The notes under the pieces were generated by a model that saw nothing but the letters and a program-made list of their open reading frames with translations, did not search any database and was not told where the DNA came from. Made by a program: the position numbers and the translations under genes. DNA of 64,000 nt from Ignavibacteriota bacterium. GTDB taxonomy: Bacteria > Bacteroidota > Ignavibacteria > UBA10030. The stretch covers positions 11,566 through 75,565 of the forward strand of contig PLMK01000026.1 in the NCBI GenBank assembly GCA_003142475.1, read 5' to 3'. This document shows positions 23,529 to 49,510 of this stretch, piece by piece. Every line of letters begins with the position of its first letter. Within the stretch, counting starts at the first letter, position 1.

Positions 23529-23915
23529 GGTTTACTCCACTTATTAAAGTGACAATCCAAAAATACTTTTACGAGAGCAGTTTATTTCGTTCTTCAGTTC
23601 TTCAATAAAAGACGCTATTTTGACAACACACTTTTCCCTTCATAACTCTTCAAAAGAAGTATAAGATTATTCTCGCATGGAAACAAGATAGAAAGCTATT
23701 TCAAAAAAGATATTCCCCAAGGTTATTTTTACTTTGCCCTTCGTCATCGATCAATGAACAAAGATAAAAAGGCATCTCATTGAAATATTAATAACTCAAC
23801 AGAAGAGAGATGATTGCAGCAAGAAAATGGCATCGATATTCGTTCGATTGTTTATAGCATCATTTATTCTTAATTTCTATAATAAATTTCTACTAAAATA
23901 ATCCGAACCAAATAT

Positions 23916-25142
23916 ATGCTCTATATAATACTATCAGCAATGAAGGAAAAAGCAATGACGAGAACAGAATTTGATCAAAAGGTACAGCGGTTATCAAAAG
24001 ACCATGAAACTTTTCTTTCTACAAAGAATGTAAAAGTGGAAAGGGGAAACGGTATCTACCAACGATATGTCAATCCGGTTGTAACGGCCGCGCATACTCC
24101 TCTTTTCTGGCGATACGATCTGAACTATAAAACCAATCCATTTTTGATGGAAAGAATAAGTGTCAACGGCACATTTAATTCTGGTGCAATCGAACATAAC
24201 GGAAAAATTCTTTTATTGGTTCGCGTAGAAGGAACAGATCGAAAATCTTTCTTTGCCGTTGCAGAATCTCAAAATGGTATAGATAACTTTCGTTTCTGGG
24301 ATTACCCGATTCAACTCGCAGAAACATCTGATGCCGATATCAATGTGTACGATATGCGTCTTGTGAAACATGAGGACGGATGGATTTACGGTTTATTCTG
24401 CACAGAGCGAAAAGACCCCAACGTTCCCCGAACCGATACGTCTTCTGCTATTGCACAATGCGGTATAGTGAGAACAAAAAATCTATTAGAATGGGAACGG
24501 TTACCGGATTTAGTAACAAAATCACCACAGCAAAGAAATGTTGTTCTTCATCCTGAGTTTGTTCATGGAAAGTATGCATTTTATACACGGCCGCAGGATG
24601 GTTTTATCGAGGCAGGATCCGGTGGCGGTATCGGGTGGGGACTATCTGAAAAAATCGAAAATGCAGTAATCGACAATGAAACGATCATCGATGATCGCGC
24701 TTACCATACTATCAAAGAAGTGAAGAACGGTTTGGGCCCCGCACCGATTAAAACAGCAAAAGGATGGCTCCAGCTTGCGCACGGTGTTAGAAACACGGCT
24801 GCAGGATTGCGTTACGTTTTATATATGTTTCTTACTGATTTAAAAGATCCAACTAAAGTTCTTGCAAGGCCGGGCGGATATTTCCTAGCCCCTGATGGTA
24901 TAGAGCGTGTCGGTGATGTATCTAATGTCGTCTTTAGTAATGGATGGGTACTGCGGGCGAATGGTGAAGTACTCATTTATTACGGTTCATCAGATACAAG
25001 AATGCATGTCGCAGTATCGACCGTCGATCAACTTCTTGATTACGTTCTTCATACACCTGAGGATGGATTACGGACAGGCATAAGTGTTCAACAGAGAATT
25101 CAATTAATAAAAAAGAATCTCGAATTGCTTGGTCGTAAGTAG
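23916..25142 (+). CDS. GH130 phosphorylase (4-O-beta-D-mannosyl-D-glucose phosphorylase-like)
   Basis: [93 protein letters not shown]. The start may be the internal ATG at 23940 or 23955. Confidence 0.88.
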
Positions 25143-25208
25143 TTATTTTGTTTGTCTCTTTAATAAAATCCTGCCAATGTAAACAATATTTCATTGGTGG
25201 GATATTCT

Positions 25209-26594
25209 TTAATTGGGAAGCAATTCTGCGGTTTTATGCCAATAGTCGATAAACTTGTTCACTTCTTTACTGGCATCTCCTTGAAGGATAGTAGTACAAT
25301 TCATCAAAGTTCGCCCAGTATGATATGTGCATTTCCACATATGACTTTTAGGACCAGTTCGAAAATGCGGTTCTTTATCAATGCCGCCTTCAAACCAATC
25401 TCCACCTTTTGCGTCAATGATATAGGATTGTACATACTCCCATTGACGGAGAAAATATTCGTAATAACGAGCCTCCTTCGGAAATATTTTAGAAAATAGA
25501 AGTAACGCATTTAATGCTTCTGCTTGTGCCCACCAATTTTTCGTGTCTTTCACTATCCTGCACTTGTCTTCCCCTTTAAAATAATATCCGCCGTCATAAA
25601 ATCCGCCAACTTTTTCATCCCATCCATACTTCATCGCATGGTCAAGCATTTTTTTTGCGATGGTGAGCGTACGGAGATCATTATCCGACTGCAACGCATA
25701 GGAAGCTTCCAGCATGAGGAATGCAGTTTCATAATCATGACCAAACGAAACATGATCCAACCCGAAATTTGCTTCACGCTCTTCTTGGGAACTATCGCGG
25801 AACGACACAGGTGTCCAATCATTATGGAAGAATAATTGCAGATAACCTTGAGGAGCCACTTGTATATCGCGGATAAGTTCGAGAAGCGCCTGAAGACGCG
25901 TGCGAACCAAGGGATCCTTCCATACATGATAGAGTTCGGTGAGTGCCTCTAACAAGTGAATTGAGGAATTTTGATCCTTAAATCCAAGCTCATTTCCGTC
26001 AGAAGCAATCGTTTTATACTCCGAGGAGCGATCAAACGGATTCCCGTTACGCATTATGAATTGAAAGTACCCTTTACCTTTCCGATCATATGAATGCTCT
26101 TCAATCCAGCGAAAGACTTTCTGCGCGAATTCTAAAACCTCCGGATCATGAGTTTGTCCATACAGAGCGGCAAGAGCATACACCGCAAAGGCGTTTCCAT
26201 ACGCACGCTTTTCATCCCGCCATCCGTTCACATCCGACATCCCGCCGTCACGACTCCGAATTTGGAAAAAGCCACCATATTTCTCATCCCACATTTTATT
26301 CTTTAAAAATGGAAAGCCATGGCGTGCCATGTCTTCATATTCCTTAACTCCACCGAAATATTGACTTGCCTTGGAGAGTGTCCAGATATGCCGTGCTTGC
26401 GAGACAATCATCTTCTCCTGCTGCGGCATAACTTTCCAATCGTGAGATATGTTTGTAAAATAACCTCCGCATTCTTTATCAAGTACCAACGGATACCAAC
26501 GTTTCAGTATTCCGTTCATAAATGCTTCCTGCATTTTTTTAATCAGTGCTGATTCTTTTTCCATATTGACTTCTTTCTCGAATTTTTTTTGCAT
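25209..26594 (-). CDS. AGE-family cellobiose/mannobiose 2-epimerase (cytoplasmic)
   Basis: No signal peptide; motifs VSQARHIWTLS, DQNSSIHLLEAL, DHVSFGHDYETAFLMLEAS, WKCTYHTGRTLMNC; paralogous to the N-terminal half of 7782-10139. The start may be 26564. Confidence 0.88.
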   Translation of the reverse strand: MQKKFEKEVNMEKESALIKKMQEAFMNGILKRWYPLVLDKECGGYFTNISHDWKVMPQQEKMIVSQARHIWTLSKASQYFGGVKEYEDMARHGFPFLKNKMWDEKYGGFFQIRSRDGGMSDVNGWRDEKRAYGNAFAVYALAALYGQTHDPEVLEFAQKVFRWIEEHSYDRKGKGYFQFIMRNGNPFDRSSEYKTIASDGNELGFKDQNSSIHLLEALTELYHVWKDPLVRTRLQALLELIRDIQVAPQGYLQLFFHNDWTPVSFRDSSQEEREANFGLDHVSFGHDYETAFLMLEASYALQSDNDLRTLTIAKKMLDHAMKYGWDEKVGGFYDGGYYFKGEDKCRIVKDTKNWWAQAEALNALLLFSKIFPKEARYYEYFLRQWEYVQSYIIDAKGGDWFEGGIDKEPHFRTGPKSHMWKCTYHTGRTLMNCTTILQGDASKEVNKFIDYWHKTAELLPN

Positions 26595-26724
26595 TCACTA
26601 ACTCTCGACAAGGATTACTCTAAATTATTTAATAATTGATTTGCCGTACTTTTATAAATAAATATTCTTTAGAAAAGGAGGAGTAGAGAGCAAAAGCCTT
26701 ATCGTCAAAATTCCTTGCGTATCG

Positions 26725-27867
26725 TTACTCTTTATCGCCAAATATTTTTAACTGATCCATTGCATGAATTAATTGATCGGAAATTTTCCGGTGTGTCTCC
26801 ACCGTTGGGTGACCATTGGCAACATAACCATCCGGGAAATCATCAAAGTGAGTATAGTAAATATCTTTATTCCCGTTCTGGCGTTCCTCATCCACAATTT
26901 GTTGCACATTCTTCTGAATCCATTCCGGATATGCCGCAACGGCAAGAATGGTAACTCCTGGATAGATCGTACGGACAGTTGTGATAAAATCATGGTACTC
27001 TTTTCGGAAGACAGCAGATTTTTCTTCTGTCACCGTACCGTCTTTTTCTTTGAGGCCGGAATGGTCGTTCAAACCTAAACAGATCACTACAAGATTGGGA
27101 ATCCACTGTTTGAAATCCCACTTTGGTTCAGGCGCCTCCATCAGTGCACGGTTAAATAATTTTGGTATCGTTGCATCGACTTTCCCCTGCCAGTCACATA
27201 CCATTCCGGCGCCTGAACGGCAAGTGGTTTGGTATTGTGCGTTATAATGTCGGGCTACGATTGCTGCGAATCCTTTATCAATATTGGTAACGGGGAATCG
27301 TCCTTCCCAAGGCAATTCTTGGACCGTTGCTTCATTGCTCTCAGCAGCTGTGAACGAATCCCCAATGAATTCAATTTTTCGTATTGGTTTTGCCGACGGG
27401 CGAAGAAGCTCCGCACTTTCATCGAGTAAGAGACCTGATATTGAGAATACCGCATCAAACATAATATTTCGTTTACTGAATAAAAGAGTATGGCGTGTAT
27501 TTGCTAAACTATCAGAAAGTATATAATCTGCTTCACCTCTTATTGTTGCATGAAGAACCTTAAGAAATTTGCCGTCAATATAAACGTTGTAATAATTGAT
27601 ACTGTCTGTCATGCGGATTCCGACGCTTGTTCCGCTAAACTCAGCAAAAAGATATACTCCAGGCCATGAATGCCGTGGATGAAGCGAGTCAGTCATATCC
27701 CATCTGCCATAATATTGAATGAAGGGATTATTCGCAGGAATAAATTGTTTTGAAAATGACATCGTACTGGCTCCCAGAACGAGAAATATAAAAATAATAG
27801 ACAGAGATCGATAGACATACTTCATACACCTATTCGCTTTCTTCATCTTTGATGATTGCGGTTTCAT
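26725..27867 (-). CDS. CE2-type SGNH/GDSL acetyl esterase (no T9SS tail)
   Basis: NPFIQYYGRWDMTDSLHPRHSWPGVYLFAEFSGTSVGIR; RKIEFIGDSFTAAES; NLVVICLGLNDHSG; GHPTVETHRKISDQ. Confidence 0.85.
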   Translation of the reverse strand: MKPQSSKMKKANRCMKYVYRSLSIIFIFLVLGASTMSFSKQFIPANNPFIQYYGRWDMTDSLHPRHSWPGVYLFAEFSGTSVGIRMTDSINYYNVYIDGKFLKVLHATIRGEADYILSDSLANTRHTLLFSKRNIMFDAVFSISGLLLDESAELLRPSAKPIRKIEFIGDSFTAAESNEATVQELPWEGRFPVTNIDKGFAAIVARHYNAQYQTTCRSGAGMVCDWQGKVDATIPKLFNRALMEAPEPKWDFKQWIPNLVVICLGLNDHSGLKEKDGTVTEEKSAVFRKEYHDFITTVRTIYPGVTILAVAAYPEWIQKNVQQIVDEERQNGNKDIYYTHFDDFPDGYVANGHPTVETHRKISDQLIHAMDQLKIFGDKE

Positions 27868-30518
27868 TTACTATAGCTATCCACCAAGCTCATAATTTTC
27901 AATGATCGTTCAAATTCTTCTTGTTGAATCTGTGTTCGTATTTTTATTGTCCGCGGGATTTCTGGAAGCAAATCAAAATAGTTTTCGTCAAAAAATCCTT
28001 TATTGTCACTGCAAGCAAGACAAACATTTTTTGCCAGCGTATTTGCAATCAATTCTATCGAAAATCCTGAATTAATCTTTGTGATTTTTTTAAAAAATTT
28101 TGGGTGTTCGAGATCCAGGTCTTTAGGAGATGTAAAATAGAATATGCTTTCCCCAAGAAGTATATCTCCTTTTTTCAAATCACATACAAATACGAGGTGC
28201 GATTTATCGAGATTGGATACGAGTTGACTCATAGAAAAAACCGCGACAATTTCTGCTTGGTTCGGTTTAAGAACTATCGGTACTGATTGTTGAAACACGA
28301 CCTTACCGTCAAAATCCATAACAGTAGCTTCAAGCACTGCATCTCTTTCCTCTCTGCTATCCGATACAATATAAACCTTAACATCATTCTCCGAGATAAT
28401 AGGTGAGATTAAAATCGGTGCATAGGAATGTTTTGCAAAATAATGAAGCGCCTTCCATCGTCCATAATAATCGATACTCGACCATGATGCAACTGGCCAG
28501 CAATCATCGATTTGCCAATACAGACTCCCCATGCAAAACGGCATGGCACGGCGATGTGCTTCCATCGCTACCTTCACACCTTCTGCCTGCAAAACTTGAC
28601 TCACATATACATAAGATTCAAAATCTTTTGGTGTACGATACCATCGATCCATATACCATTGAATCAACCGATTTCCATATTCCTTATCGCGTCGCTCGTC
28701 TGCCATACAGCGTTGATGCGAAAGCATGACTTCTGAATGAAGCGTTCTATCTTCCGGTTTTGCATATTGAGCTATCGTGGATAATTCCGGATAAGATTGA
28801 AATCCGTACTCGCTTATAAATCGCGCAAGATGAGAAGTATAATTTTCGAAAGGTTCTTTCCCATGCCATACTCCCCAATAATGAATATCGCCGTCGTTTG
28901 CCAAGATATTCCTAAATCCTGCACTCGGGCTTGTCGGATGATAGTATCGAGTCGAGTCTGCTTCACGAATAGCGGAAGGAATTACTTCGTAAAATAATTT
29001 TTCCGCATTCTGTTGAAAGACACGCTGGAATTTCTTATTGTTTTTTTCTTTCCATCCCCATTGTTCCCATCCAACTTCGTTTTCATTATTACCGCAATAC
29101 ATTGCTATGCACGCATGATTACGGATACGAGTAATGTTGTCAACGACTTCCTGCCGGACATTTTCTAAAAATTCAGTGTCACCCGGATACATAGCACATG
29201 CAAAAATCATTTCCTGCCAGATAAGAATTCCATACCGGTCACACAACTCATAGAACTGATTGTCTTCATAAATTCCGCCTCCCCATACACGAAGCATGTT
29301 CATGTTCGCTTCTGCCGCTGAGCGAACAATATGTTCACATCGTTCTTTTGTCACCCTGTTTTGGAAATTGTCTTGGGGAATATAGTTTGATCCCTTCATA
29401 AACACGGGAATCCCATTGAGACGAACCATCATGCTTGTGCCAAGCGAATCTTTTTCCCGAACAATTTTGACAGATCGAATGCCGATTTTTGTCGAGTAGA
29501 CATCCTGACAGCCAGAATCCTCCTTGACATAAAGTTGATAATTGTAAAGTTTTTGCGCGCCTAATCCATTTGTCCACCAGAGCTGCGGATTGGAAAAGTA
29601 GCTGTTGAGCTTTATTTTATTAATCCCCCGTTTGAGATTAATCGTCTCTGTTAATACATCTAAGCTATCAAGAAATAAAGAAGCAGAGACCGTTTGTTCC
29701 TTTGTGGATTGAATATTGATTATCGAAATAATATCGGCACCTGACGATGAGACATTTTTTTGCTGGATATGAACATCTCGTATCTTGAACTTACTCCACG
29801 CTTCCACATACATCGGACGCCATATACCACAAGTGATCAAACGAGGGCCCCAATCCCATCCGTAATGAAACTGAGCTTTGCGGGAATACATGGCAATCTT
29901 GACATCCGCCTGATCATTATTAGCACAAGCCTGAAGTTCAAAAGGAGCTGCTTTGTATTTCGGTAGATTTTCATCAAAAATATTTTTGAATCGAACAATA
30001 ATATGATTTCCATGTTCGAGCAATATTTCCCGACAGTTGATTCGCCATGTGCGGAACATGTTGTTCGCTTTCAGAATAGGCGAATTATTTAGAGTCACTT
30101 CGGCATACGTGTCTAGCCCATCGAAAACAAGCTCGATGGATTCTTTGTTTAAAATTTCTGCTGGCACATCAAATGTTGTTTCATAGATCCAATTCTTCTC
30201 ACCAATCCATTGCAGCGACTGTTCGTTTGTTCCAATGAATGGATCTGGTATCAAATTATTCTTCATAAGATCGGTATGAACACAACCCGGTACTTCTGCA
30301 GGATACCATCGTTCGGTATTCTCCTGTCTAAATTTCCAGTTATCACAAATCTCAATCTTCATCGTTCGATTACTGTCCGCAGAAAATGTATTTTGAATAA
30401 TGAGTATTCCCGCCAAGCAGGAATAAATTACGAGTTTTTTCATTGCATACAATTTTCGTTTTCGAACTCTTGATTGTTTATCATAAGGCTCTGCTTCACT
30501 CATGGTTTTAAGACCCAA
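27864..30518 (-). CDS. GH2 beta-mannosidase
   Basis: DNWKFRQENTERWYPAEVPGCVHTDLM; LVFDGLDTYAEVTLN; MLRVWGGGIYEDNQFYELCDRYGILIWQEM; YCGNNENEVGWEQWGW; FISEYGFQSYPE. The likely start is MKKLVIYSC at 30443. Overlaps the downstream CE2 gene by 4 nt (ATGA). Confidence 0.92.
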   Translation of the reverse strand: MGLKTMSEAEPYDKQSRVRKRKLYAMKKLVIYSCLAGILIIQNTFSADSNRTMKIEICDNWKFRQENTERWYPAEVPGCVHTDLMKNNLIPDPFIGTNEQSLQWIGEKNWIYETTFDVPAEILNKESIELVFDGLDTYAEVTLNNSPILKANNMFRTWRINCREILLEHGNHIIVRFKNIFDENLPKYKAAPFELQACANNDQADVKIAMYSRKAQFHYGWDWGPRLITCGIWRPMYVEAWSKFKIRDVHIQQKNVSSSGADIISIINIQSTKEQTVSASLFLDSLDVLTETINLKRGINKIKLNSYFSNPQLWWTNGLGAQKLYNYQLYVKEDSGCQDVYSTKIGIRSVKIVREKDSLGTSMMVRLNGIPVFMKGSNYIPQDNFQNRVTKERCEHIVRSAAEANMNMLRVWGGGIYEDNQFYELCDRYGILIWQEMIFACAMYPGDTEFLENVRQEVVDNITRIRNHACIAMYCGNNENEVGWEQWGWKEKNNKKFQRVFQQNAEKLFYEVIPSAIREADSTRYYHPTSPSAGFRNILANDGDIHYWGVWHGKEPFENYTSHLARFISEYGFQSYPELSTIAQYAKPEDRTLHSEVMLSHQRCMADERRDKEYGNRLIQWYMDRWYRTPKDFESYVYVSQVLQAEGVKVAMEAHRRAMPFCMGSLYWQIDDCWPVASWSSIDYYGRWKALHYFAKHSYAPILISPIISENDVKVYIVSDSREERDAVLEATVMDFDGKVVFQQSVPIVLKPNQAEIVAVFSMSQLVSNLDKSHLVFVCDLKKGDILLGESIFYFTSPKDLDLEHPKFFKKITKINSGFSIELIANTLAKNVCLACSDNKGFFDENYFDLLPEIPRTIKIRTQIQQEEFERSLKIMSLVDSYSK

Positions 30519-30612
30519 ATAACAATTATTTTAACTAGCGCAAAAAACAAATTATCATTTAGCACTGATTTTAATCCGAATTATATAAACTGCTAAATAT
30601 GGGACTGTTAAA

Positions 30613-31584
30613 TTACTTTTTCAGCAATTCTTTCCATATAAGTGCGGCAGCTCCCAGAATTGCTGCATTTCCCTTCGGCAAACCCGACGGTAATAACCGC
30701 ACTTTGTTTTTAAAGATACCGAGAAGAAATTCTTCCATATATTTCTTTGTTGGGATAAAAATAAAATCTCCCGCTGCCGCCAATCCTCCGAAAAGAATAA
30801 TTGCTTCCGGACTTGTATGAGCAATAGAATCTGCAAGTTTCAATCCGAGATATTTCCCTGTCAAATCGAATGCTTCTAATGCGAGTTTATCTCCATGCTG
30901 TGCTGCTTCGAAAATGTGTTTCGATGTAATACTTTGCGGATTCATTTCGCGTAGTTCACTTGGCGGCGTAGGTGCTTTGAGAAGCTCTTCTACCGTCCGG
31001 CAAATTCCGCTTGCTGATGCATACGTTTCCAAGCATCCGCGTCGCCCGCAACCGCACTTGCGCCCATTCGGATCAACAATGGTATGACCGATCTCTCCGG
31101 CAAAACCATCATGGCCGTAAATAAGTTCTCCATTTGCTACGATCCCGCTGCCCAGACCGGTTCCCAGTGTAATCTCAATAAAATCTTTCATTCCTTTAGC
31201 TGCTCCAAACAACTGTTCGCCCAGTGCAGCGGCATTTGCATCATTAGTGAGTGCTATGGGAATGGAATACCAGCGGCGCATCGTCATAACAACATCGACA
31301 TATTTCCAGCTCAAATTTGGAGGTTGCTCGATGGTACCTTTATAGTAATTGGCATTGGGAGCTCCCAGACCAATACCAATAAGATTCAGTTGATCTTTTT
31401 GGGTCGTAAAGAGTTTCGTTGCTTCTATATGAAGCCGTTCAAAAAATTCATCGGCCGGCCGCTGTGCTTCCGTCAACATTTCCCCCTCAGCGAGAAGATT
31501 TCCAGTCTTATCGACATAGCCAAATTTTGTATTGGTACCTCCGATATCAACACCAAGCACTACTTCTTTCTGATTCATATTCAT
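30613..31584 (-). CDS. ROK-family sugar kinase (glucokinase-like)
   Basis: VLGVDIGGTNTKFGYVD; TNDANAAALGEQLFGAAKGMKDFIEITLGTGLGSGIV; GHTIVDPNGRKCGCGRRGCLETYASASGI. Confidence 0.92.
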   Translation of the reverse strand: MNMNQKEVVLGVDIGGTNTKFGYVDKTGNLLAEGEMLTEAQRPADEFFERLHIEATKLFTTQKDQLNLIGIGLGAPNANYYKGTIEQPPNLSWKYVDVVMTMRRWYSIPIALTNDANAAALGEQLFGAAKGMKDFIEITLGTGLGSGIVANGELIYGHDGFAGEIGHTIVDPNGRKCGCGRRGCLETYASASGICRTVEELLKAPTPPSELREMNPQSITSKHIFEAAQHGDKLALEAFDLTGKYLGLKLADSIAHTSPEAIILFGGLAAAGDFIFIPTKKYMEEFLLGIFKNKVRLLPSGLPKGNAAILGAAALIWKELLKK

Positions 31585-33032
31585 CCTTTATTATATGCAG
31601 GAATATGTCCCTTGAGTCCATAGAACGCTAGATAGATATAACAAATAATCGGTATAAAAAAAGACGCATGATAACCACCCATCATGTCGGCAAACCAACC
31701 CTGGAAAAGTGGGACAAGTGCGCCGCCAAGGATCATCATGACGAGAAGTGACGAACCCTGCGACGTATGCTGGCCCAGGTCTTTGATAGCGAGAGTGAAG
31801 ATATTAGACCACATAATGGAGTTGAACAGGCCGATGGCGATTACCGTCCAGAGCGCAACATTTCCTCCGGTAAATGTCGCCACACCTAGCAAGCAGATGA
31901 TAATGAGTGAAAAAATAAATAGTGTTCTGGCAGCGCGCGATTTTCCAAGAATGAATCCGATGAATTGAATTGCCATGAATCCAAGGTACGGCAACGTTGA
32001 GATTATAGAGAATTTTCCCCCGCTTTGAGTACTCTCTAAGAGAACAATTCCGGAGATAAGACCATAAATGACAAATGCTGACACTGCCATTTTCAAGTAC
32101 ATTTCCCCCACACTCTTATTATCACCAAGTGAAATCGAACCAAGGAACCGTCCAATCATAAGCCCGCCCCAGTAATATGCCAGGAATGATTTAGCATTCA
32201 TTTCCGCCAGTCCAGCCACTTCTTTTGCATAGTTGATAAAAAGACTTCCGATACTCACTTCTGCACCAACGTAAACGAAAATCGCGATCATACCAAGCAC
32301 GAGATGGGGATACCTGAGCGCTCCGATTCCTTTTTCGATTTTTTCGGTGCTGATGAATTGCGGCAGGTGGGTAAATTTAACGACGATAGCCAGTATGATA
32401 AAAATTGCTGCGAATACAAGATAGGGTAATTGAACACCCATTGCGGTCATTGGCAATCCTTGATCAGTCAGAACTTGTTGACCGGTGGCATTTAGCAATG
32501 GAGTACCTATTCTTGCAAAGAAGTGAAATACAAGATACCCACCGACGATAGGTGCTATTGTAGTACCCAGAGAGTTCCACGCTTGTGCGAGGTTGAGACG
32601 GCTCGATGCTGTCTCCGACTTACCGAGAAGTGCAACATAAGGATTAGCCGCTATCTGCAGCAAGGTAAATCCGATCCCGAGAATGAAGAGTAACCCGAGA
32701 AATAGGCCGTATACTTTTATATCCGCCGCAGGATAAAATCCGGCACAAGCAGCGGCTGAGATCAGGAGACCAAGAATAATACCGTTCTTATATCCCATTT
32801 TACTCATGGGGTCTCCCCAGAGTGCCGAAATAATGAAATAAATGACCGATCCAATAAAATATGCACCAAAGAAAGTGAATTGTACATACATCGACTGGTA
32901 GCGATTAAGCTCGAACATTTTTTTAAGGAAAGGAATAAGAATATCGTTGAGAACCGTGATAAATCCCCACATAAAGAAAAGTGATGTAAGAACTACTAAT
33001 GCTGTAGTATACTTTTGAGATTGTTCGGTCAT
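31581..33032 (-). CDS. Sugar MFS transporter (FucP/glucose-galactose family)
   Basis: FFMWGFITVLNDILIPFLKKMFELNRYQSMYVQFTFFGAYFIGSVIYF; LLFILGIGFTLLQIAANPYVALLG; RLNLAQAWNSLGTTIAPIVGGYL. Overlaps the ROK kinase by 4 nt. Confidence 0.93.
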   Translation of the reverse strand: MTEQSQKYTTALVVLTSLFFMWGFITVLNDILIPFLKKMFELNRYQSMYVQFTFFGAYFIGSVIYFIISALWGDPMSKMGYKNGIILGLLISAAACAGFYPAADIKVYGLFLGLLFILGIGFTLLQIAANPYVALLGKSETASSRLNLAQAWNSLGTTIAPIVGGYLVFHFFARIGTPLLNATGQQVLTDQGLPMTAMGVQLPYLVFAAIFIILAIVVKFTHLPQFISTEKIEKGIGALRYPHLVLGMIAIFVYVGAEVSIGSLFINYAKEVAGLAEMNAKSFLAYYWGGLMIGRFLGSISLGDNKSVGEMYLKMAVSAFVIYGLISGIVLLESTQSGGKFSIISTLPYLGFMAIQFIGFILGKSRAARTLFIFSLIIICLLGVATFTGGNVALWTVIAIGLFNSIMWSNIFTLAIKDLGQHTSQGSSLLVMMILGGALVPLFQGWFADMMGGYHASFFIPIICYIYLAFYGLKGHIPAYNKG

Positions 33033-33359: not shown

Positions 33360-34889
33360 ATGATCTACTGTTTATCCGATCTCCTCTTGCTACACCGCGA
33401 TGACCGAGCATCGCACATTGCGATAATCGATGGTCCACGCCGTCTCACATACATACAATTGATTCATCAGACAGAACAATTTGCAGCAATCTTACAAGCC
33501 CGTGGCGTGCAACGAGGTGACCATATTGCTGTTTATTTACAGCGCTCCATTGAGTCTGTGGTTGCACTCTTTGCAGTGTGGTCTCTTGGCGGTGTTGTCG
33601 TCATTATCAACGATGTGCTGAAGAATCGGCAGGTCAACTACATAATCGATCATTCGGAAGCTTCGTTTCTCATTACAGAGAACCGTCTTCGTGCGTCTCT
33701 AACTGAAATTCTATTGAGCGCCGATAGCATCATTACAATTGATACTGAACTAGATGCTCACAAAGATTTTACTCCCACACATGTTATCGGTGTGGATCTT
33801 GCGCTTATTATCTACACTTCAGGATCCACAGGCATGCCTAAAGGGATAATGCTTTCGCATGACAATCTGCTCTCTGGCGCTCGTATTATTTCCGATTATC
33901 TTCATATCACACAGGACGACATCATCATAAGCCTTCTACCATTTAGCTTCGATTATGGACTCAACCAGCTGTTGACAACATTGCTTGTAGGTGGAACATT
34001 AGTGATTCAACGTTCTGTGCTGCCCGCAGACATCTGTAATACTTTACAACTTGAGCGAGTCACAGGAATGGGAGCTGTACCAATGTTATGGCAGCAATTA
34101 GCAGGAAACCGATCGCCGTTTATAAAAACGCAATTCCCGTATCTTCATTATATTACGAACACCGGCGGACGTATGCCGGAAAACATCACAAAACTTTTTC
34201 GTCAAATTCATCCGCACCTACAGATCTATTTGATGTTTGGATTAACAGAAGCATTCCGTTCGACATATCTTCCTCCTGATCAAGTTGATGTGCGTCCGAA
34301 TTCTATCGGGAAAGCTATTCCGAATGTTGAACTTCTGGTACTTAATGAGCGAGGTGAAATTTGCAAACCAGGAGAAGAAGGAGAACTTGTCCACCGCGGG
34401 GCAAATATTGCATTGGGATATTGGAAAGATCCGGAAAACACTGCAAAGCGATTTCGACCGGCTCCCTTCCAGCAAGGAAAAGGAGGACAACCCGAGATTG
34501 CGGTCTACTCTGGGGATTATGTAAAAACAGATGAAGAAGGATATATATACTTTATTGGCCGCAAAGATCAGATGATTAAATCGCACGGCATGCGTGTCAG
34601 TCCAGAAGAAATTGAGGATTGTATCTTTGCATCAAAGATGGTTGCTCATGTAATTGCATTCGCAATTCCTTTCGATGATGTGAACAGTACTATCATCATT
34701 GCTCTTGTACCTTCCAATATAGGATCGTTTTCAGAAAAGGAACTGCGGCTCTATTGTAAATCGCAACTGCCAGAATATTTGAGACCTGATGTTTTTTGGC
34801 AGTTAGAAAGTTTTCCGCTTACTTCATCCGGAAAACCTGATCGTGTTCGGTTGCGGGAAATGTACAAGGAGCATAGTAACGAACATTGA
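33360..34889 (+). CDS. AMP-dependent acyl/amino-acyl-CoA or ACP ligase
   Basis: LIIYTSGSTGMPKGIMLSHDNLLSGARII; MFGLTEAFRSTYLPPDQ; YSGDYVKTDEEGYIYFIGRKDQMIKSHGMRVSPEEIE; TSSGKPDR. Confidence 0.92.
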   Translation: MIYCLSDLLLLHRDDRASHIAIIDGPRRLTYIQLIHQTEQFAAILQARGVQRGDHIAVYLQRSIESVVALFAVWSLGGVVVIINDVLKNRQVNYIIDHSEASFLITENRLRASLTEILLSADSIITIDTELDAHKDFTPTHVIGVDLALIIYTSGSTGMPKGIMLSHDNLLSGARIISDYLHITQDDIIISLLPFSFDYGLNQLLTTLLVGGTLVIQRSVLPADICNTLQLERVTGMGAVPMLWQQLAGNRSPFIKTQFPYLHYITNTGGRMPENITKLFRQIHPHLQIYLMFGLTEAFRSTYLPPDQVDVRPNSIGKAIPNVELLVLNERGEICKPGEEGELVHRGANIALGYWKDPENTAKRFRPAPFQQGKGGQPEIAVYSGDYVKTDEEGYIYFIGRKDQMIKSHGMRVSPEEIEDCIFASKMVAHVIAFAIPFDDVNSTIIIALVPSNIGSFSEKELRLYCKSQLPEYLRPDVFWQLESFPLTSSGKPDRVRLREMYKEHSNEH

Positions 34890-34945
34890 AAGGTATTATC
34901 AGAATCCTATTCGGAATATTGTTCTCGAGATAAAAGGAAAAAGGT

Positions 34946-35845
34946 TTGAGATTAAATCCGCTCTATAATGCACTCTTAAATCGCTTAACAGCTTTATGGG
35001 TTGCACAACCAGACAAACCAGAGGAAACCCCCGAATCAACTTTGAAAGCACTCTATTTTTGCGCTGCAGGTATTCCTATTTCGGTCCAGAAAGCATCACG
35101 TGAAACCATTCCAGAGTTGGACGACAATGCACAGAAACGACTTAAGATTCTTATCGAAAAACGTCTAAGTGGTGTACCTCTTGCTCATATCACTGGACGC
35201 CAACAATTTCTGGACATGGAATTACTGGCAGGACCTGAAGCCCTGATCCCACGGATTGAGACTGAGATTCTCGGCCGTGCAGCACTTGCGATTGCAAAAT
35301 CCCTCGCGGATAAGAGAGGCACTATCACTATTATGGATGTGTGCACTGGATCGGGAAACGTTGCACTCGGAATCGCTGTCAACGAATCTCGATCAAGGGT
35401 TCTTGGATCGGACTTTTCCGAAGAAGCGATTATGCTTGCACGTCAGAATGCACAACATTTGAATTTGGATAAACGAGTCGAATTCAGACAGAGCGACCTA
35501 TTTGCGGCATTTGAATCAGATGAGTTTTACAAGAAGATGGATCTCATCACCTGCAACCCTCCATACATTCCATCGACGAAGGTCGGCAGTATGGATCCAG
35601 AAATTTCACAAAATGAACCTCGACTGGCTTTTGATGGAGGCTCACTGGGAATTACAATCCTCGCGCGATTAATTAGAGAATCTCCAAAATACCTCAAACC
35701 AAACTCCTATCTTTGTTTCGAAGTCGGACTTGGGCAAGGGAAGGCTATGGAGCAAAGACTCAAGAAGGAGAATATCTATAGCAGCATTCAATCTTATGTT
35801 GACAACGCCGACCAAGTGCGAGCCTTGTCTGCACAAGTCGCGTAG
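34946..35845 (+). CDS. PrmC/HemK-like SAM-dependent N-methyltransferase (TTG start)
   Basis: LSGVPLAHITGRQQFLDMELLAGPEALIPRIETEIL; TIMDVCTGSGNVALGIA; DLITCNPPYIPSTKV. Confidence 0.85.
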   Translation: MRLNPLYNALLNRLTALWVAQPDKPEETPESTLKALYFCAAGIPISVQKASRETIPELDDNAQKRLKILIEKRLSGVPLAHITGRQQFLDMELLAGPEALIPRIETEILGRAALAIAKSLADKRGTITIMDVCTGSGNVALGIAVNESRSRVLGSDFSEEAIMLARQNAQHLNLDKRVEFRQSDLFAAFESDEFYKKMDLITCNPPYIPSTKVGSMDPEISQNEPRLAFDGGSLGITILARLIRESPKYLKPNSYLCFEVGLGQGKAMEQRLKKENIYSSIQSYVDNADQVRALSAQVA

Positions 35846-36123
35846 TCTAAACGATTGCCTCAATGTTGTAATATCATATTAATTCAGTTTATTAAGTTAA
35901 TTCTTTCTAACAGTTCATGAAAGTGTCCTACTTCTTGTTTTAATAGCTAAACGCTCTCAACATCTTATCAAATTCAAAACCATATCCATGATTCTGTGAG
36001 GGCTTTCATTATGATGATCCTGAGATACACAAAACAGAATCCCATTGTTGATCGTTTATTGACTAATAGCGAAAGTTTGATTAGGTTTTTTTTAGCAGCC
36101 TTTTGGATATATAGATAAATCGA

Positions 36124-37203
36124 ATGATAAAATTAGAGAAAAAGCATTTAGTTATACTTATTTTTTTATGGCTTGGGATCGCTCTTTTCCTTACTCTTTG
36201 GCCATTCGATTTATTGCGTAAAAATGTTGTTACTGCCACTCCAGCCGGGGGCTTTCATTTTGAGTCTCCTTCCATTATATATCTTAGTCGGCTTCCCATA
36301 AAAATTAGAGGACTAAAAAAGTTCTCTATTATAATGGAAGTGAAATCAGATATTACATTAGTAGACATTGACGGCATCATCTTTGGCAATTGCATTGACT
36401 ACGATAATCAGAATTTTCTCATGGTACAGGTGCACGAAGCTGTTGAATTTATCATAAACGTCAACGGCATTTCTCAAGAAATATTCGTTGGAGGAATTTT
36501 CGACAAAGACAATACTGTCTGGATTGAAATCATCTATGATGGGAACAAGCTTACCTTCCTTAAGAACGGATCAGTAAAAAACGTTGTCACAATAGGAAAC
36601 CTTGATTTTTCTCACTGGAATAGTTCCTACCCATTCGTTTTTGCAAATGGAGGCGATGGTATGAACCCCTGGTCTGGTACCATCTTTTCGTTTGACCTTT
36701 TTGACAGTGTTATTACAATATCTAATCGTCAACAACTTGAGATGATAAGGGATCAGGTATCACCTCTTATCAGTCTGTCTGCTCATCAAGAACGAATAGG
36801 ACAATATAAATTACAAGAAGATGTTTCTACACCATCTATCGTCATACCAACAAGATTCAATCCTCCAGGAAAAAGTTTATTGATCAGCCTTTTTAATTTC
36901 ACTGAGTGGCGGCATATAAGCTATATAGATTTTTTTCTCAACATTTTGTTTTTTATTCCATTCGGATTGCTCCTGCGACTCCTTCTAGAAAAATTTACCA
37001 ACCGTTATTACTTGAGCTTCTTCATCACAATCATGACTGGATTATTTCTTACAATAACGATCGAAACATTACAATCTTTTCTTCCCGTTAGATATACCAG
37101 CATTCTGGATGTTTTGAGTAATACTCTTGGCACGATTGCAGGCGCGATGATTATTACATTTTCATGGGTTCGACAATTATTAAATTTGCAAAGGCAAAAA
37201 TAG
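36124..37203 (+). CDS. VanZ-family membrane protein with inserted LamG/concanavalin-A-like extracytoplasmic domain
   Basis: N-terminal TM followed by WPFD; beta-rich middle (IIFGNCIDYDNQNFLMVQVHEAVEFIINVNG..., VWIEIIYDGNKLTFLKNG); C-terminal VanZ-like TMs (IDFFLNILFFIPFGLLLRLLL; ETLQSFLPVRYTSILDVLSNTLGTIAGAMI). Confidence 0.8.
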   Translation: MIKLEKKHLVILIFLWLGIALFLTLWPFDLLRKNVVTATPAGGFHFESPSIIYLSRLPIKIRGLKKFSIIMEVKSDITLVDIDGIIFGNCIDYDNQNFLMVQVHEAVEFIINVNGISQEIFVGGIFDKDNTVWIEIIYDGNKLTFLKNGSVKNVVTIGNLDFSHWNSSYPFVFANGGDGMNPWSGTIFSFDLFDSVITISNRQQLEMIRDQVSPLISLSAHQERIGQYKLQEDVSTPSIVIPTRFNPPGKSLLISLFNFTEWRHISYIDFFLNILFFIPFGLLLRLLLEKFTNRYYLSFFITIMTGLFLTITIETLQSFLPVRYTSILDVLSNTLGTIAGAMIITFSWVRQLLNLQRQK

Positions 37204-37204
37204 T

Positions 37205-38224
37205 ATGAGTAAACCTCAAAATTGGCTAAAGATCGAGACAACTTCCGAAATAGAGAAAATTGTAAAAGTCATTCATCATCAAGTAAAAACTGTTCTTCGA
37301 AAAAAGGGCGCTGTCATTGCCGTGTCTGGCGGAATTGATAGTTCTGTTTGTGCAGCATTATGTACAAAAGCATTAGGGAAAGAAAATATACTGGCTCTCT
37401 CACTGCCTGAGCGTGACTCTTCTTCTGATTCGATAAGACTTGGACAACAACTGGCCGAATTACTTGAAATTAAATTATACAAGGAAGATATTACTCCTAT
37501 TCTCAAGGGAGCTAAGTGCTATGAGCTTCAACTCGAAGCGATACGTCAGATATTCCCTGAGTATGGAGAAGGTTGGAAATTAAAAGTTACACTTCCATCT
37601 ATCCTCGAAAATGATCGATTGAATTTATCACACCTCACAGTCCAGGGGCCAACAGGTATTCAGAAGTCATCACGAATGCCTTTTCATGCATATCTTCAGC
37701 TCATTGCAGCAACAAATTTAAAACAGCGTACACGGAAAATGACGGAATACCTGTATGCGGATCGATTTAATTATGCTGTCTGCGGAACACCAAACCGCCT
37801 TGAATATGACCAAGGATTTTTTGTAAAGCTGGGCGATGGCAGTGCTGATTTTAAACCTATAGCTCATCTCTACAAATCTCAAGTTTATCAACTCGCAGAG
37901 GCACTTGGTATCCCCGAAGAGATCCGTAAACGACAGCCGACCACAGAAACATTCTCACTTCCGCAAACTCAAGAGGAATTTTATTTCTCTCTTCCGTACG
38001 AACAGATGGATATTTGTCTTTATGGATTCAATCACAATATTCCTTCTTCTGAAACAGCCCAGGCGGCACAACTTACTTCAGAACAAGTGGAGCGAGTATA
38101 TAAAGACATAGAAAAAAAGCGCCGAATAACATTAGGGCTGCATCTTCCGCCTCTCTTGATCGAAAGCGTAGATGAGATCAATGATCTCATTCAATCAGCC
38201 ATTCGTCAATCAAAGGAAGTGTAA
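37205..38224 (+). CDS. NadE-like (NAD synthase family) ATP-pyrophosphatase / amidotransferase paralogue lacking a glutaminase domain
   Basis: PP-loop IAVSGGIDSSVCAALC; GTPNRLEYDQGFFVKLGDGSADFKPIAHLYKSQVYQLAEALGIPEEI. Confidence 0.85.
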   Translation: MSKPQNWLKIETTSEIEKIVKVIHHQVKTVLRKKGAVIAVSGGIDSSVCAALCTKALGKENILALSLPERDSSSDSIRLGQQLAELLEIKLYKEDITPILKGAKCYELQLEAIRQIFPEYGEGWKLKVTLPSILENDRLNLSHLTVQGPTGIQKSSRMPFHAYLQLIAATNLKQRTRKMTEYLYADRFNYAVCGTPNRLEYDQGFFVKLGDGSADFKPIAHLYKSQVYQLAEALGIPEEIRKRQPTTETFSLPQTQEEFYFSLPYEQMDICLYGFNHNIPSSETAQAAQLTSEQVERVYKDIEKKRRITLGLHLPPLLIESVDEINDLIQSAIRQSKEV

Positions 38225-38229
38225 CTCCG

Positions 38230-40266
38230 ATGTGTGGAATTGCTGGATATGTTAATCTCGCTGATCGTAAAGACTCGCCAACTGTCGAGTTATTACAATC
38301 GATGATCGGTGCTATTCGCTACCGCGGTCCGGACGAGTATGGACTATATAGAGATAATTATGCCGGCTTGGTTCATGCACGTCTTTCTATCATCGACCTC
38401 CAGACAGGTCAACAACCAATGTCCAATGAAGATCGCACACTTTGGATTGTCTTCAATGGAGAGATCTTCAATTTTATTGAATTGAAAGTTGAGCTTGAGA
38501 AATTGGGCCATCGTTTTCAAACCCATTCGGACACTGAAATCATTCTCCATGCATTTGAATCTTGGGGTGTTGATTGTTTTTCCCGTTTTAACGGCCAATG
38601 GGCACTTGCTTTATGGAACACACAAACACGCAATCTTATATTATCTCGTGATCGAATCGGTGTACGTCCATTATTCATTCATGAAAACAACAGGAGAGTT
38701 ATTTTTGGAAGTGAAATCAAAGCTTTATTTGCCGATCCCTCAGTTACGCGCGCTATCAATCCACAAGGACTTGATCAAACGTTTACCTATTGGGCATCAA
38801 TAGCTCCGGTAACTGTGTTTGAAGGAATTGAAGAACTACCTCCAGCTTCTTTTCGTTTGTATGGACCAAATGGAGAAAAGAAGGAAAAGTTATATTGGAG
38901 TCCATCGTATCCTGAAGCGCCAAGGAGTTGGGAACATGGTTCTATTTTCCCGACGCTCGCCGATGCTACAGAACTTCTGCGTGAAAAATTAGAGCAGGCA
39001 ACAAAATTGCGAATGCTGCGTTCAGATGTACCGGTAGGAAGTTATTTGTCTGGCGGATTAGATAGTTCTGTAATTGCCCAGTTAGGTCGACGTGCAAAAG
39101 AAGGCCGATTTGAAACTTTTTCTATTCGATTCGATGATATTGAATTCGATGAGACTAAGTACCAAAGGATGATGGCCGCTACTTTGAACAGCTCTCATAG
39201 AGAAATCATTGTAACAAGGAAAGATATCGCACAAGTTTTTCCAGACGTCATTCAGCATACTGAACGACCAATACTCAGGACAGCTCCCGCTCCTTTGTTC
39301 CTTCTTTCCAAAGCCGTACGTGAATCTGGAATTAAAGCGGTTTTAACCGGTGAAGGAGCAGATGAAATGTTAGCCGGCTATGATATTTTCAGAGAAGCGA
39401 AGATTCGTCAATTCTGGTCTCACCAGCCGAATTCGAAAGTCAGGCCTTTACTGTTTGACCGGATCTATCCTTACCTGGCGCGGTCACCGCAGCGTACACG
39501 AGGAATGGCATTTGAATTCTGGAAAAAAGGGCTTGAACATGCAGGTTCACCCGGATTTTCCCATGAACCGCGATGGCAAACTACATCTTCGTTAAAAAAA
39601 TTCTTGTCTAAAGATTTTTTGGGTTCCCTTGAAAAAAATCCTTCTCCTTCTGCATTAGATAATCTACCCGCTGCTTTTAACAAATGGGATCCTCTTACAC
39701 AAGCTCAATATCTTGAAATAACAACATTGCTTTCAACATACCTGATTTCCTCCCAAGGAGATCGCATGCTGATGGCTCATTCAGTCGAAGGTCGTTTCCC
39801 TTTTCTCGATGCTGATGTAATGGAATTCTGTAACGGACTTCCGGCAGAATATAAGCTGGCTTTTCTTGAAGAGAAACGTATCCTAAAAAAGGTAGCAGAC
39901 GGATTGATACCAGAATCGATTATTCACCGCAAGAAGCAACCGTACCGTGCACCGGATGCAGCAAGTTTTCTCGGTCAGGACGCACCCGCATATATTCAAG
40001 AGCTGTTCTCGGATCGTAAGCTCAAAACGAATGGAGTTTTCAATCCACAAGTAGTTCAAGGTTTATATGAAAAATGTATTTCGAAGCGCGACAAAGTCCA
40101 TGAACCCGGTTTGTTCAGTAATACAGACAATATGGCTTTTGTAGGAATCCTATCCACTCAGCTTGTTGTTCAACAGTTTATTGAAACATCTGAACTAAGC
40201 TGTGGAACGAATATTCAATTCAAAACATTTATCGATCACACTCAACATCCATCACCAGCACGTTAA
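38230..40266 (+). CDS. Asparagine synthase (glutamine-hydrolysing)-like amidotransferase
   Basis: MCGIAGYVN Ntn nucleophile; RYRGPDEYGLY; RLSIIDLQTGQQPMSNED; VFNGEIFNFIELK; SYLSGGLDSSVIAQL; LTGEGADEMLAGYDIF; EGRFPFLDADVMEF. Confidence 0.93.
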   Translation: MCGIAGYVNLADRKDSPTVELLQSMIGAIRYRGPDEYGLYRDNYAGLVHARLSIIDLQTGQQPMSNEDRTLWIVFNGEIFNFIELKVELEKLGHRFQTHSDTEIILHAFESWGVDCFSRFNGQWALALWNTQTRNLILSRDRIGVRPLFIHENNRRVIFGSEIKALFADPSVTRAINPQGLDQTFTYWASIAPVTVFEGIEELPPASFRLYGPNGEKKEKLYWSPSYPEAPRSWEHGSIFPTLADATELLREKLEQATKLRMLRSDVPVGSYLSGGLDSSVIAQLGRRAKEGRFETFSIRFDDIEFDETKYQRMMAATLNSSHREIIVTRKDIAQVFPDVIQHTERPILRTAPAPLFLLSKAVRESGIKAVLTGEGADEMLAGYDIFREAKIRQFWSHQPNSKVRPLLFDRIYPYLARSPQRTRGMAFEFWKKGLEHAGSPGFSHEPRWQTTSSLKKFLSKDFLGSLEKNPSPSALDNLPAAFNKWDPLTQAQYLEITTLLSTYLISSQGDRMLMAHSVEGRFPFLDADVMEFCNGLPAEYKLAFLEEKRILKKVADGLIPESIIHRKKQPYRAPDAASFLGQDAPAYIQELFSDRKLKTNGVFNPQVVQGLYEKCISKRDKVHEPGLFSNTDNMAFVGILSTQLVVQQFIETSELSCGTNIQFKTFIDHTQHPSPAR

Positions 40267-40277
40267 AGGATATTTCA

Positions 40278-40535
40278 ATGGTTGACCAACAAAACATTCA
40301 GAACACTGTGAGAGATTTCATCCAGAAGAATTTTATATTCGACACTTCCAATGCACTTGCGGACGATGAATCGCTGCTAGGCACGGGAGTTATTGATTCA
40401 ACGGGAGTACTAGAACTTATCGGGTATTTAGAGGAAAAATTTCAAATGACATTCGAGGACAGTGAATTAGTTAGCGAGAATTTCGATTCAATTTTGAAAA
40501 TAACTGCTTTCCTGCAAAAGAAACTTGAAAAATAA
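40278..40535 (+). CDS. Acyl carrier protein
   Basis: 85 aa acidic; DESLLGTGVIDSTGVLELIGYLEEKFQMTFEDSEL with phosphopantetheine-type DS motif. Confidence 0.9.
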   Translation: MVDQQNIQNTVRDFIQKNFIFDTSNALADDESLLGTGVIDSTGVLELIGYLEEKFQMTFEDSELVSENFDSILKITAFLQKKLEK

Positions 40536-40719: not shown

Positions 40720-41574
40720 TTATTCTGTGACGATAACCAGATGGCTGTCACGCCAAAATATTTCCGGTTTTGTGATTGTCAATAGAGTGCGTTTATCCGG
40801 CTTCTCCTCTTTTGTATATGAGGCAGTATCTCTTACCGGAACAATCTCCTTGATAGTACCGATAACCTCAATCAACATATCCTTTGTTTTATCAAGCGAA
40901 GTGAATTCTCCGTCGTTATATGTATTTGTAAGGACCGTCGTTGTACCAAGCAATCCCCACAATATTCCGCCCTCACTGGAAACGATTTTCTTCTCTTCCA
41001 GTTCACTCTTTTTACCTGCTACATAATATACTTTATTCATCTGCTTCGTTTGATTTTCAATAGTTTCGTCGCGTACAGTGATGGTTTTGATTTTTGAAGC
41101 TATATCGCCTTCGAGATTCTGCACCTGAGTCCGCATACTATCAATGGTTTTCTCCCGTTCTTCGAGAGATTTCTTCAAATCATCAACAAGCAGGCTCAAT
41201 CCCGTATACTGGGTCTTTTGTTCTGCAAGTTTTCGCTGAAGGTTTGCAATCTTTTTTCGATTTTCGGTGATTATCGAAGAAATATTTGATATCCGATCCA
41301 TAATCTGCGTTTTTATATCTGCCTGGGAGAGCATTTTACCATTTTCGACTGTGGGAGTCTTCTGCACGATATTCTTTTGCATTGCCCAGGTGCTCTCGAG
41401 TTTGTTATGAATATCGTTGATCGTTGAAGTGACTTCTTCAACAAACTTGTCTTTCGAGGCAATTTCCTCCTTCAATTGTGTAATTTGTTTCTCCATCTCA
41501 ATTTGCTCTTGCGATTTTCCACAGCCCGCAATGATAAATGAGAAGAAGACAAGAAAAGCAATTGTTGTTCTCAT
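40720..41574 (-). CDS. Coiled-coil lipoprotein of unknown function
   Basis: Start reassigned to MRTTIAFLVFFSFIIAGCGKSQEQ (signal peptide plus lipobox), shorter than ORF-track 40720..41766; long heptad-rich region; C-terminal globular segment. Confidence 0.75.
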   Translation of the reverse strand: MRTTIAFLVFFSFIIAGCGKSQEQIEMEKQITQLKEEIASKDKFVEEVTSTINDIHNKLESTWAMQKNIVQKTPTVENGKMLSQADIKTQIMDRISNISSIITENRKKIANLQRKLAEQKTQYTGLSLLVDDLKKSLEEREKTIDSMRTQVQNLEGDIASKIKTITVRDETIENQTKQMNKVYYVAGKKSELEEKKIVSSEGGILWGLLGTTTVLTNTYNDGEFTSLDKTKDMLIEVIGTIKEIVPVRDTASYTKEEKPDKRTLLTITKPEIFWRDSHLVIVTE

Positions 41575-41770
41575 AATCGTTTTAATCCCTTCGATTGATG
41601 TTGTTGGTGGATGATTTAATTGGACAATAAGGATGAACTCTGTTTCAGGAACAATACTTGAACTAAAATAAGAATATTTTTTTAGAATTACTATATTTGA
41701 GCTCACACCTGATTTCCTCTCTATTAAACAAATAATCCTAAAAAATAGTTCACATCGGGTGGTCACTCTG

Positions 41771-47750: not shown

Positions 47751-48509
47751 TTATGAATTCTTTTGGGAAGACTTCTGCAAATGATGCATCGTGTAGTATG
47801 CACCGCCTAGAAAAAGTCCGATGAGCGGTACAATCAAGCCGCATGCAATCCAATCCCCATGAGGGGTCTCTGGTGTCAGCCGGATAGCAACGTACGATGG
47901 TAAGCCGCCTAACCAGAATGTCGCTATGAATGTCACAATACGGTTCTTCCGTGACAATCCATGATAGAAAAATAGACTTGCTACAAGTCCATCTAAGAAC
48001 GGTAAATGCTTCGATTCATTCTGGCTCCATGTATTCCATAACCATATTAAGTACATCGCAATAACTGTGCAGACAATACAATACCACCCAAGAAAGAGAA
48101 TCCAGTAGATGTCGGTTGGTGTTCTATCGGCACTACTAAGCTGTGCAAGATGAATTCTGTGTAAACACAATACTCCTACTACCCAAGCTGCTAAAAGCGC
48201 CATCGCAATGCGGGACCGCTCTACTGAATGGCCATGAAGTGCAGTTTTAAGATTACGATATCGCTGAACGAGCCGCGGACACAATTCACGTTTACTCAAA
48301 TATGCTTCAAGCAATCGTATAAAATAAAGTACAAGCCAAATACAAACGACTGATGCCGCGAGAGTTCCCAACACCCATAAAGATCGATGAGCAAAGAACA
48401 CAATTAATCCGATAAGAATCATAAGTACTTGAATTTCTTCTCTATAGTACCATGTAAACGAGAATGACTGCTGGTCATCAGTCGATTTCGTTGTTGGATT
48501 TTCATTCAT
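47751..48509 (-). CDS. Polytopic membrane protein, unknown function
   Basis: 252 aa with several TM segments; 4 nt overlap with the upstream ORF. Confidence 0.7.
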   Translation of the reverse strand: MNENPTTKSTDDQQSFSFTWYYREEIQVLMILIGLIVFFAHRSLWVLGTLAASVVCIWLVLYFIRLLEAYLSKRELCPRLVQRYRNLKTALHGHSVERSRIAMALLAAWVVGVLCLHRIHLAQLSSADRTPTDIYWILFLGWYCIVCTVIAMYLIWLWNTWSQNESKHLPFLDGLVASLFFYHGLSRKNRIVTFIATFWLGGLPSYVAIRLTPETPHGDWIACGLIVPLIGLFLGGAYYTMHHLQKSSQKNS

Positions 48510-49510
48510 ACTTGAGCACCATGATTGAAGGCAACCGCTGCAATTTCGGATAGTTTTCGTGGATTGAAATAAGAGCCTTCTAATTTATGTAATTCAGAGA
48601 CAAGCATTCCTACTTTCATAAAGGGATAGAACACTTCCGTACTATCTTTGTTAATACGTTTAGCTCTACACATGAGAAAGTAACTTTCGAAGAACGAGGC
48701 ATATGGTTTTAGCCATGGCTCCGAGTCAATCGATTGCAAAAAATCATATATCTGACGATTAAATCGCAGAACATTCATCTCGTCTTCAAATTGTGATTCA
48801 TTGAATTCTGGAAAGTCGATAAAAAGGGAAAGTCGTTTTCGATTCGGTTCAATTCGCACCTCTTCAACTTTTTCATAGAATAGATGGGGCGAATGTATCT
48901 TCATTTGCGTGCGCCAAATTTCGCTAATGTCTATTGTTGTTCCTTCCCGCAGAAGAGTGAGTTGAGCATCCAATTCTTTTCCCTTGCTCAAGTTCGCCTG
49001 TAGGCGTGCTCGCTGGAGTGATTCAAGACCATTTCCAGCAACAGGATGAATCCGCCGCTTTTGCCGTTGCTGCATCAAAGAAATCACATCCAGCCGGCGT
49101 TGTCCGGACCGGCGAAATTGAATCGCCTCTTTCAAATAATCTTGAGTATCGTCAAGACCAAATTCTGATCTTGATCGGAGAAAAAAATTAGCACCAAAAC
49201 CTGTGAGCAAGGTAGAAAAAATAATTGCCCAGACATCGGTTGTATTACGTGTGGAGAGGAATTCAAAAAGCGTCAATATCATACCCAAAAACCATAATAA
49301 AATTGAAAATAGAAATAGCCATGAGGCAATACCAGCGATTATAGATTCGACAAAAGAGATTGGTCTATCGATCCAGATAAGTGTGAACCGTCGCAACAGG
49401 AGCCACGTAAGGATAAAACCAGCAAGCGCTATGACTAAGATTACGTACACAATAATGCCACGAAATGATGACGATTCAGTTTGAGAACTGCGGTAAGCTT
49501 CCACGGACAT
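48506..49510 (-). CDS. Membrane-anchored protein with cytoplasmic-like C-terminal region, unknown function
   Basis: 334 aa; three or four N-terminal TMs, then a long charged region. Confidence 0.7.
   Translation of the reverse strand: MSVEAYRSSQTESSSFRGIIVYVILVIALAGFILTWLLLRRFTLIWIDRPISFVESIIAGIASWLFLFSILLWFLGMILTLFEFLSTRNTTDVWAIIFSTLLTGFGANFFLRSRSEFGLDDTQDYLKEAIQFRRSGQRRLDVISLMQQRQKRRIHPVAGNGLESLQRARLQANLSKGKELDAQLTLLREGTTIDISEIWRTQMKIHSPHLFYEKVEEVRIEPNRKRLSLFIDFPEFNESQFEDEMNVLRFNRQIYDFLQSIDSEPWLKPYASFFESYFLMCRAKRINKDSTEVFYPFMKVGMLVSELHKLEGSYFNPRKLSEIAAVAFNHGAQV

Follow-up and report, generated by a model that had tools for sequence, protein, structure and literature searches.

A conserved gene module linking a NadE-like enzyme to AsnB, a carrier protein and an AMP-forming ligase: a candidate carboxamide-forming pathway

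We analysed a window of 64,000 nucleotides from the 3.58-Mb genome of an Ignavibacteriota bacterium, in which six genes follow one another on the forward strand. They encode an AMP-forming acyl/aminoacyl ligase (33360..34889), a paralogue of the PrmC/HemK methyltransferase family (34946..35845), a membrane protein joining a weak LamG-like region to VanZ (PF04892; 36124..37203), a NadE-like protein predicted to be an ammonia-dependent amide ligase (37205..38224), an AsnB-family glutamine amidotransferase/synthetase (38230..40266) and a stand-alone acyl/aminoacyl carrier protein (ACP; 40278..40535). All six open reading frames were found where the earlier note had placed them, and Pfam and NCBIfam family scans agreed with the families it had named, including a NadE without glutaminase domain and an AsnB with the N-terminal Cys2. 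The intergenic gaps are 56, 278, 1, 5 and 11 nt, so that the last four genes are tightly packed, as had been claimed, while the ligase and PrmC-like genes are set more loosely; the LamG-VanZ, NadE-like, AsnB and ACP genes look like a single transcription unit. No multi-domain NRPS or PKS synthase is encoded in the cluster, where carrier chemistry consists of the stand-alone ligase and ACP alone, and an NRPS system is thereby ruled out.

The six genes are flanked by a mannan-utilisation locus upstream and by unrelated genes downstream. The mannan locus (22536-33032) encodes a GH2 beta-mannosidase, a GH130 mannooligosaccharide phosphorylase, a GlcNAc 2-epimerase-like protein, a CE2 esterase, a ROK kinase and a FucP-like transporter. 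Three further proteins of the window (10181-12658, 14987-17722 and 21310-22503) carry a C-terminal Por_Secre_tail domain, suggesting that the organism probably uses a T9SS. On the reverse strand, a coiled-coil lipoprotein (40720-41766) matches the NCBIfam 'Cbp1 family collagen-binding adhesin' above its cut-off (134 bits), in an apparently environmental bacterium, and two overlapping adjacent reading frames of 252 and 334 aa (47751-49510) have no Pfam match.

We found that four of the six genes travel together. Scanning 84,980 species genomes, we obtained more than 570 relatives and studied the best 80, counting a gene as a partner when it lay no more than 6 kb from the NadE-like one; the partners mostly share its strand. 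Among the 50 loci with at least 6 kb of sequence on both sides, AsnB was present in 49, the ligase in 46, the ACP in 43 and all three in 42, although the 80 loci are the closest relatives, many of them from rhizobia, and 42 of 50 is not an unbiased rate. This linkage, observed in loci that span several phyla, is far beyond chance and rules out a fortuitous assembly of genes; it also bears out the co-occurrence of NadE, AsnB, ACP and ligase genes anticipated earlier. The set remains together in different orders, namely NadE-AsnB-ACP-ligase, AsnB-ACP-ligase-NadE and NadE-AsnB-ligase-PrmC-ACP, and in the legume symbiont Sinorhizobium meliloti, a model organism, it forms a tight asnB-ACP-ligase-nadE operon on pSymB, with the nadE-like gene at 1,450,582-1,451,586 (strain 1021). 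We conclude that the NadE-like, AsnB, ACP and AMP-ligase genes constitute a conserved four-gene module. Within the phylum, NadE proteins of the NF002048 subfamily were detected in 12 of 297 genomes, representing 11 of 140 genera, and a sampled genome of the same genus lacks one. Such a patchy distribution suggests that the module is mobile and has probably spread horizontally. Neither a transporter nor a resistance gene recurs throughout the loci.

The NadE-like protein contains PF02540, has no glutaminase domain and scores 486.6 bits against NF002048 (cut-off 313). It cannot be regarded as the housekeeping NAD synthase, since a canonical NadE (263 bits) is encoded on another contig (C66) in a housekeeping-type neighbourhood; the objection that it might be the only NAD synthase of the genome thus falls away. 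A strong separate NAD synthase match was likewise present in nearly all of the 15 other carriers searched; in two genomes (G300 and G308) the additional matches were weaker and to longer proteins. The structure model (pLDDT 90) found only NAD/NMN synthetases as best PDB matches, and the fold, the SGGxDS motif and the ATP-site residues are those of NadE (NF002048/PRK00876; PDB 2e18 and 1nsy; the Francisella NMN synthetase 3fiu). The ATP site is invariant in the family (SGGxDS, R175, R177, T195, E200 and K224), with the PP-loop of the window protein reading SGGIDSS at residues 41-47, and the C-terminal K305-R306 pair is retained. The family differs from NadE in its substrate loop, where the canonical PSADLWxGQTDE (PSADLWEGQTDE) is absent and PTT(D/E)TxSxxQxQEEFYF stands in its place, a replacement (PTTETFSLPQTQEEFYF) that is near-invariant within the family. 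It differs also in an insertion of about 50 residues predicted to form three strands (125-129, 143-147 and 153-157), and in being an extra gene beside the canonical copy with AsnB, ACP and ligase as constant partners.

Judging from its fold, the NadE-like enzyme likely performs an ATP-driven amidation of a carboxylate with ammonia, and its altered loop suggests that the substrate is probably other than deamido-NAD. Of the residues that database annotation gives as deamido-NAD contacts, several are conserved, so that binding of a deamido-NAD-like nucleotide may be retained, and a nucleotide-linked carboxylate is quite possible as the substrate. We regard this family as separate and probably repurposed, and the database name 'NAD(+) synthase' for the NF002048/PRK00876 subfamily as a probable over-annotation.

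The AsnB protein possesses Cys2, an Asn_synthase domain and the SGGLDSS and GEGADE motifs. It passes TIGR01536 (506 bits, cut-off 267) and falls below both the XrtA/PEP-CTERM amidotransferase family TIGR03108 (410 bits, cut-off 817) and the N-acetylglutaminylglutamine amidotransferase family (371 bits, cut-off 570), the latter score leading us to reject an N-acetylglutaminylglutamine amide system. As the sole AsnB-type enzyme of its genome, it may have a side role in asparagine synthesis. In a rapidly built tree, some of whose branches are long, the NadE-linked AsnBs formed their own clade (SH-aLRT 100), distinct from the AsnBs encoded in module-free sister genomes; the latter are only about 26-35% identical to the window protein and lie among glycan genes where their neighbours were read.

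The ligase comprises an AMP-binding and a C-terminal domain, with its catalytic Lys in TSSGKPDR and an FD motif within FSFDYG. In amino-acid adenylating domains such as GrsA and DltA, the Asp of this motif binds the amino group of the substrate. It is common to 37 of 61 close ligase copies, with S, C, T or G in the remaining 24. The ligase is also the least conserved partner (about 30-36% identity to most others), and the loaded acid may consequently vary between loci. The ACP was recognised as a carrier protein by NCBIfam only, with no match in Pfam; its phosphopantetheine motif (D40-S41-T42-G43) is intact, each residue being shared by 90% or more of 53 homologues.

The two remaining genes of the cluster are accessories. 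The PrmC-like protein scores 206.5 bits against TIGR03534 (cut-off 199.1) and has the NPPY signature as CNPPY. A housekeeping PrmC (272 bits) is encoded on contig C11 in a housekeeping-type neighbourhood, and such a pair of cluster and housekeeping copies was present in all 12 carrier genomes compared, including that of the window. In a tree with 12 housekeeping PrmCs and two PrmBs, the cluster copies, that of S. meliloti among them, formed one clade (branch support 100/99), which, together with the C11 copy, rules out that the window protein is the housekeeping PrmC. Counting the window, some 19 of 81 loci have a PrmC-like gene, making PrmC a frequent accessory of the module and not part of its core. 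The LamG-VanZ protein has a hydrophobic N-terminal segment and a C-terminal VanZ domain. The LamG-like domain ascribed to it is weak in the window copy (14.8 bits, below the cut-off) and clear in a homologue encoded just upstream of the NadE-like gene in genome G244 (Laminin_G_3, 46.3 bits; locus L008). Although the earlier note had counted this gene in the set, it precedes NadE in the window and in two other loci (that of G244 and L027) and is missing from a sister locus (L019) whose NadE is 81% identical; it is thus a lineage-specific accessory.

A further partner is a two-domain GNAT-like family, undescribed and with a weak Acetyltransf_9 match, that recurs next to the module. In S. meliloti its gene overlaps a PrmC-like gene as a pair about 10 kb from the operon, and in G244 it adjoins an AsnB gene located on a separate contig, the product of which still falls inside the NadE-linked clade. 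Among 23 Bacteroidota genomes searched, the family was found in two module carriers only and is absent from the genome of the window. It accompanies the PrmC-like or AsnB genes of the module even when they are detached from NadE (L174, 25385-27330; L195, 6062-9405).

Ligase, AsnB and ACP sets had been connected with exosortase and EPS regions, and this connection holds in part for relatives of the module but not for the genome studied here. The exosortase XrtW adjoins the module in a Nitrospira locus (L092), and EPS/O-antigen-type clusters, as judged from the reading frames, surround it in six loci (L110, L111, L112, L113, L115 and L116); in some relatives it stands beside serine-acetyltransferase-like and GDSL-type genes. 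Among 124 flanking proteins from 14 loci, FemAB-type GNAT (7) and GT4 (5) were the commonest Pfam families, these being raw counts without a random control. No LPS-type gene lies within 10 kb of the S. meliloti operon. We found no exosortase (PF09721) anywhere in the genome of the window, ruling out a full exosortase system there and with it an adjacent one that would explain the set, and 11 of the phylum's 12 module carriers likewise showed none. Nevertheless, the neighbourhoods of the relatives suggest that the set is related to the exosortase-associated ligase and amidotransferase families despite scores below their cut-offs: TIGR03098 is the nearest curated family of the ligase, yet at 552 bits (cut-off 592), and TIGR03108 the nearest specialised family of AsnB. 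Compared with the exosortase A set, which keeps similar gene company in some relatives, the window adds the NadE-like and PrmC-like genes.

Other known systems resemble the module in part. AsnB-type genes have been described in EPS clusters (PMC3684757, PMC4784049), and in Porphyromonas gingivalis a WbpS-type AsnB uronamide synthase amidates a surface sugar, the T9SS linking sugar, with an amino-acid transferase present alongside (PMC7468200). Despite the shared enzyme family, the pathway as published lists neither a NadE-like gene nor genes for an ACP or a ligase (PMC7468200), and AsnBs of sister genomes with glycosyltransferase neighbours are not members of the NadE-linked clade. D-alanylation by DltA and DltC, an envelope decoration, likewise pairs an amino-acid ligase with a stand-alone carrier protein; however, the window proteins score far below the cut-offs (182.7 against 559.85 and 24.1 against 68 bits), which excludes this identity, DltB and DltD are not alongside, and the amide-forming enzymes are extra. 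No paper describing the NadE-AsnB-ACP-ligase gene set was found in the literature searched, in keeping with the proposal of an undescribed biosynthetic system.

The co-occurrence of the genes, the canonical NadE elsewhere and the lack of an exosortase support a dedicated biosynthetic module. Our preferred reading, held tentatively and with somewhat less than even confidence, is a horizontally spread carrier-protein pathway making carboxamides for an envelope glycan or a related metabolite. The gene content, its conservation, the paralogy, the intact ATP sites and the serine motif of the carrier are observed, and from these we infer the substrates, step order, N-methylation and destination as follows. 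The ligase would adenylate a carboxylic acid, here probably an amino acid, and load it on the carrier protein. The AsnB-type enzyme would activate a carboxylate with ATP and convert it into a carboxamide, using glutamine as its ammonia source; the NadE-like enzyme would do likewise with ammonia that is free or supplied by AsnB. In a subset of genomes, including that of the window, the PrmC-type enzyme may add a methyl group to the amide nitrogen or to a related one; the two-domain GNAT of other lineages may transfer the group held by the carrier. The product would most likely decorate an envelope glycan or glycolipid or serve as one of its building blocks. Pointing to the envelope are the EPS/O-antigen-type surroundings of relatives, the FemAB-type GNAT and GT4 neighbours, XrtW in L092 and the closeness of the ligase to the exosortase-associated family. 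Of the scheme put forward before, with ACP loading, amidation and possible N-methylation coupled to the envelope, the carrier module with two amide-forming enzymes is supported, while N-methylation and the product are proposals.

Against an envelope destination, the module borders mannan utilisation and not polysaccharide synthesis in the window. The product might instead be a free small molecule, an amidated and perhaps N-methylated peptide-like metabolite or osmolyte resembling N-acetylglutaminylglutamine amide, in which case LamG-VanZ, FemAB and exosortase genes would be nearby by coincidence. We consider this rather unlikely. Polysaccharide genes neither adjoin the module in the window nor lie close by in S. 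meliloti, the compact core has a patchy distribution (12 of 297 genomes, 11 of 140 genera), and AsnB is somewhat similar to the N-acetylglutaminylglutamine amidotransferase family; yet that similarity stays below the cut-off (371 against 570), transporter and resistance genes are not among the constant members, and locations in EPS and exosortase regions recur in unrelated phyla.

A remnant or variant of the exosortase/PEP-CTERM EPS set (TIGR03098, TIGR03108 and ACP) that has lost its exosortase appears improbable: intact, conserved reading frames without decay, scores under the curated cut-offs (592 and 817) and a single exosortase-bearing genome among the 12 phylum carriers weigh against it, even though TIGR03098 is the best match of the ligase (552), TIGR03108 is among the best of AsnB (410) and XrtW directly adjoins the module in Nitrospira. 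That the window simply holds a true second NAD synthase and an ordinary asparagine synthetase, with no shared product, is very improbable. In its favour, the NadE-like enzyme retains the catalytic ATP residues as well as the KR pair at its C terminus, and AsnB is the sole copy in its genome and passes TIGR01536 (506 against 267); but the linkage to ACP and ligase crosses phyla, a canonical NadE is also encoded here and in almost every carrier examined, the substrate-loop motif has been swapped for a different invariant one, and the AsnBs form a separate clade.

Returning to the dedicated carrier-protein pathway, we may propose, as a possibility on the unlikely side, a bolder version, an undescribed pathway found across phyla. 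In it, a NAD synthase put to another purpose would act with a dedicated AsnB to yield a doubly amidated, optionally PrmC-N-methylated carrier-bound acyl or aminoacyl unit, a novel type of building block for the envelope or for a small molecule, with a role of NadE outside NAD synthesis. The S. meliloti 1021 operon on pSymB opens the pathway to experimental test. Altogether, these findings suggest that hundreds of genomes contain a gene that is labelled NAD(+) synthase but probably has another identity, linked as it is to genes for AsnB, a carrier protein and a ligase. If true, the NadE fold would have found a new use, which may offer a handle on the unexplained ligase, ACP and amidotransferase genes of EPS and exosortase regions.
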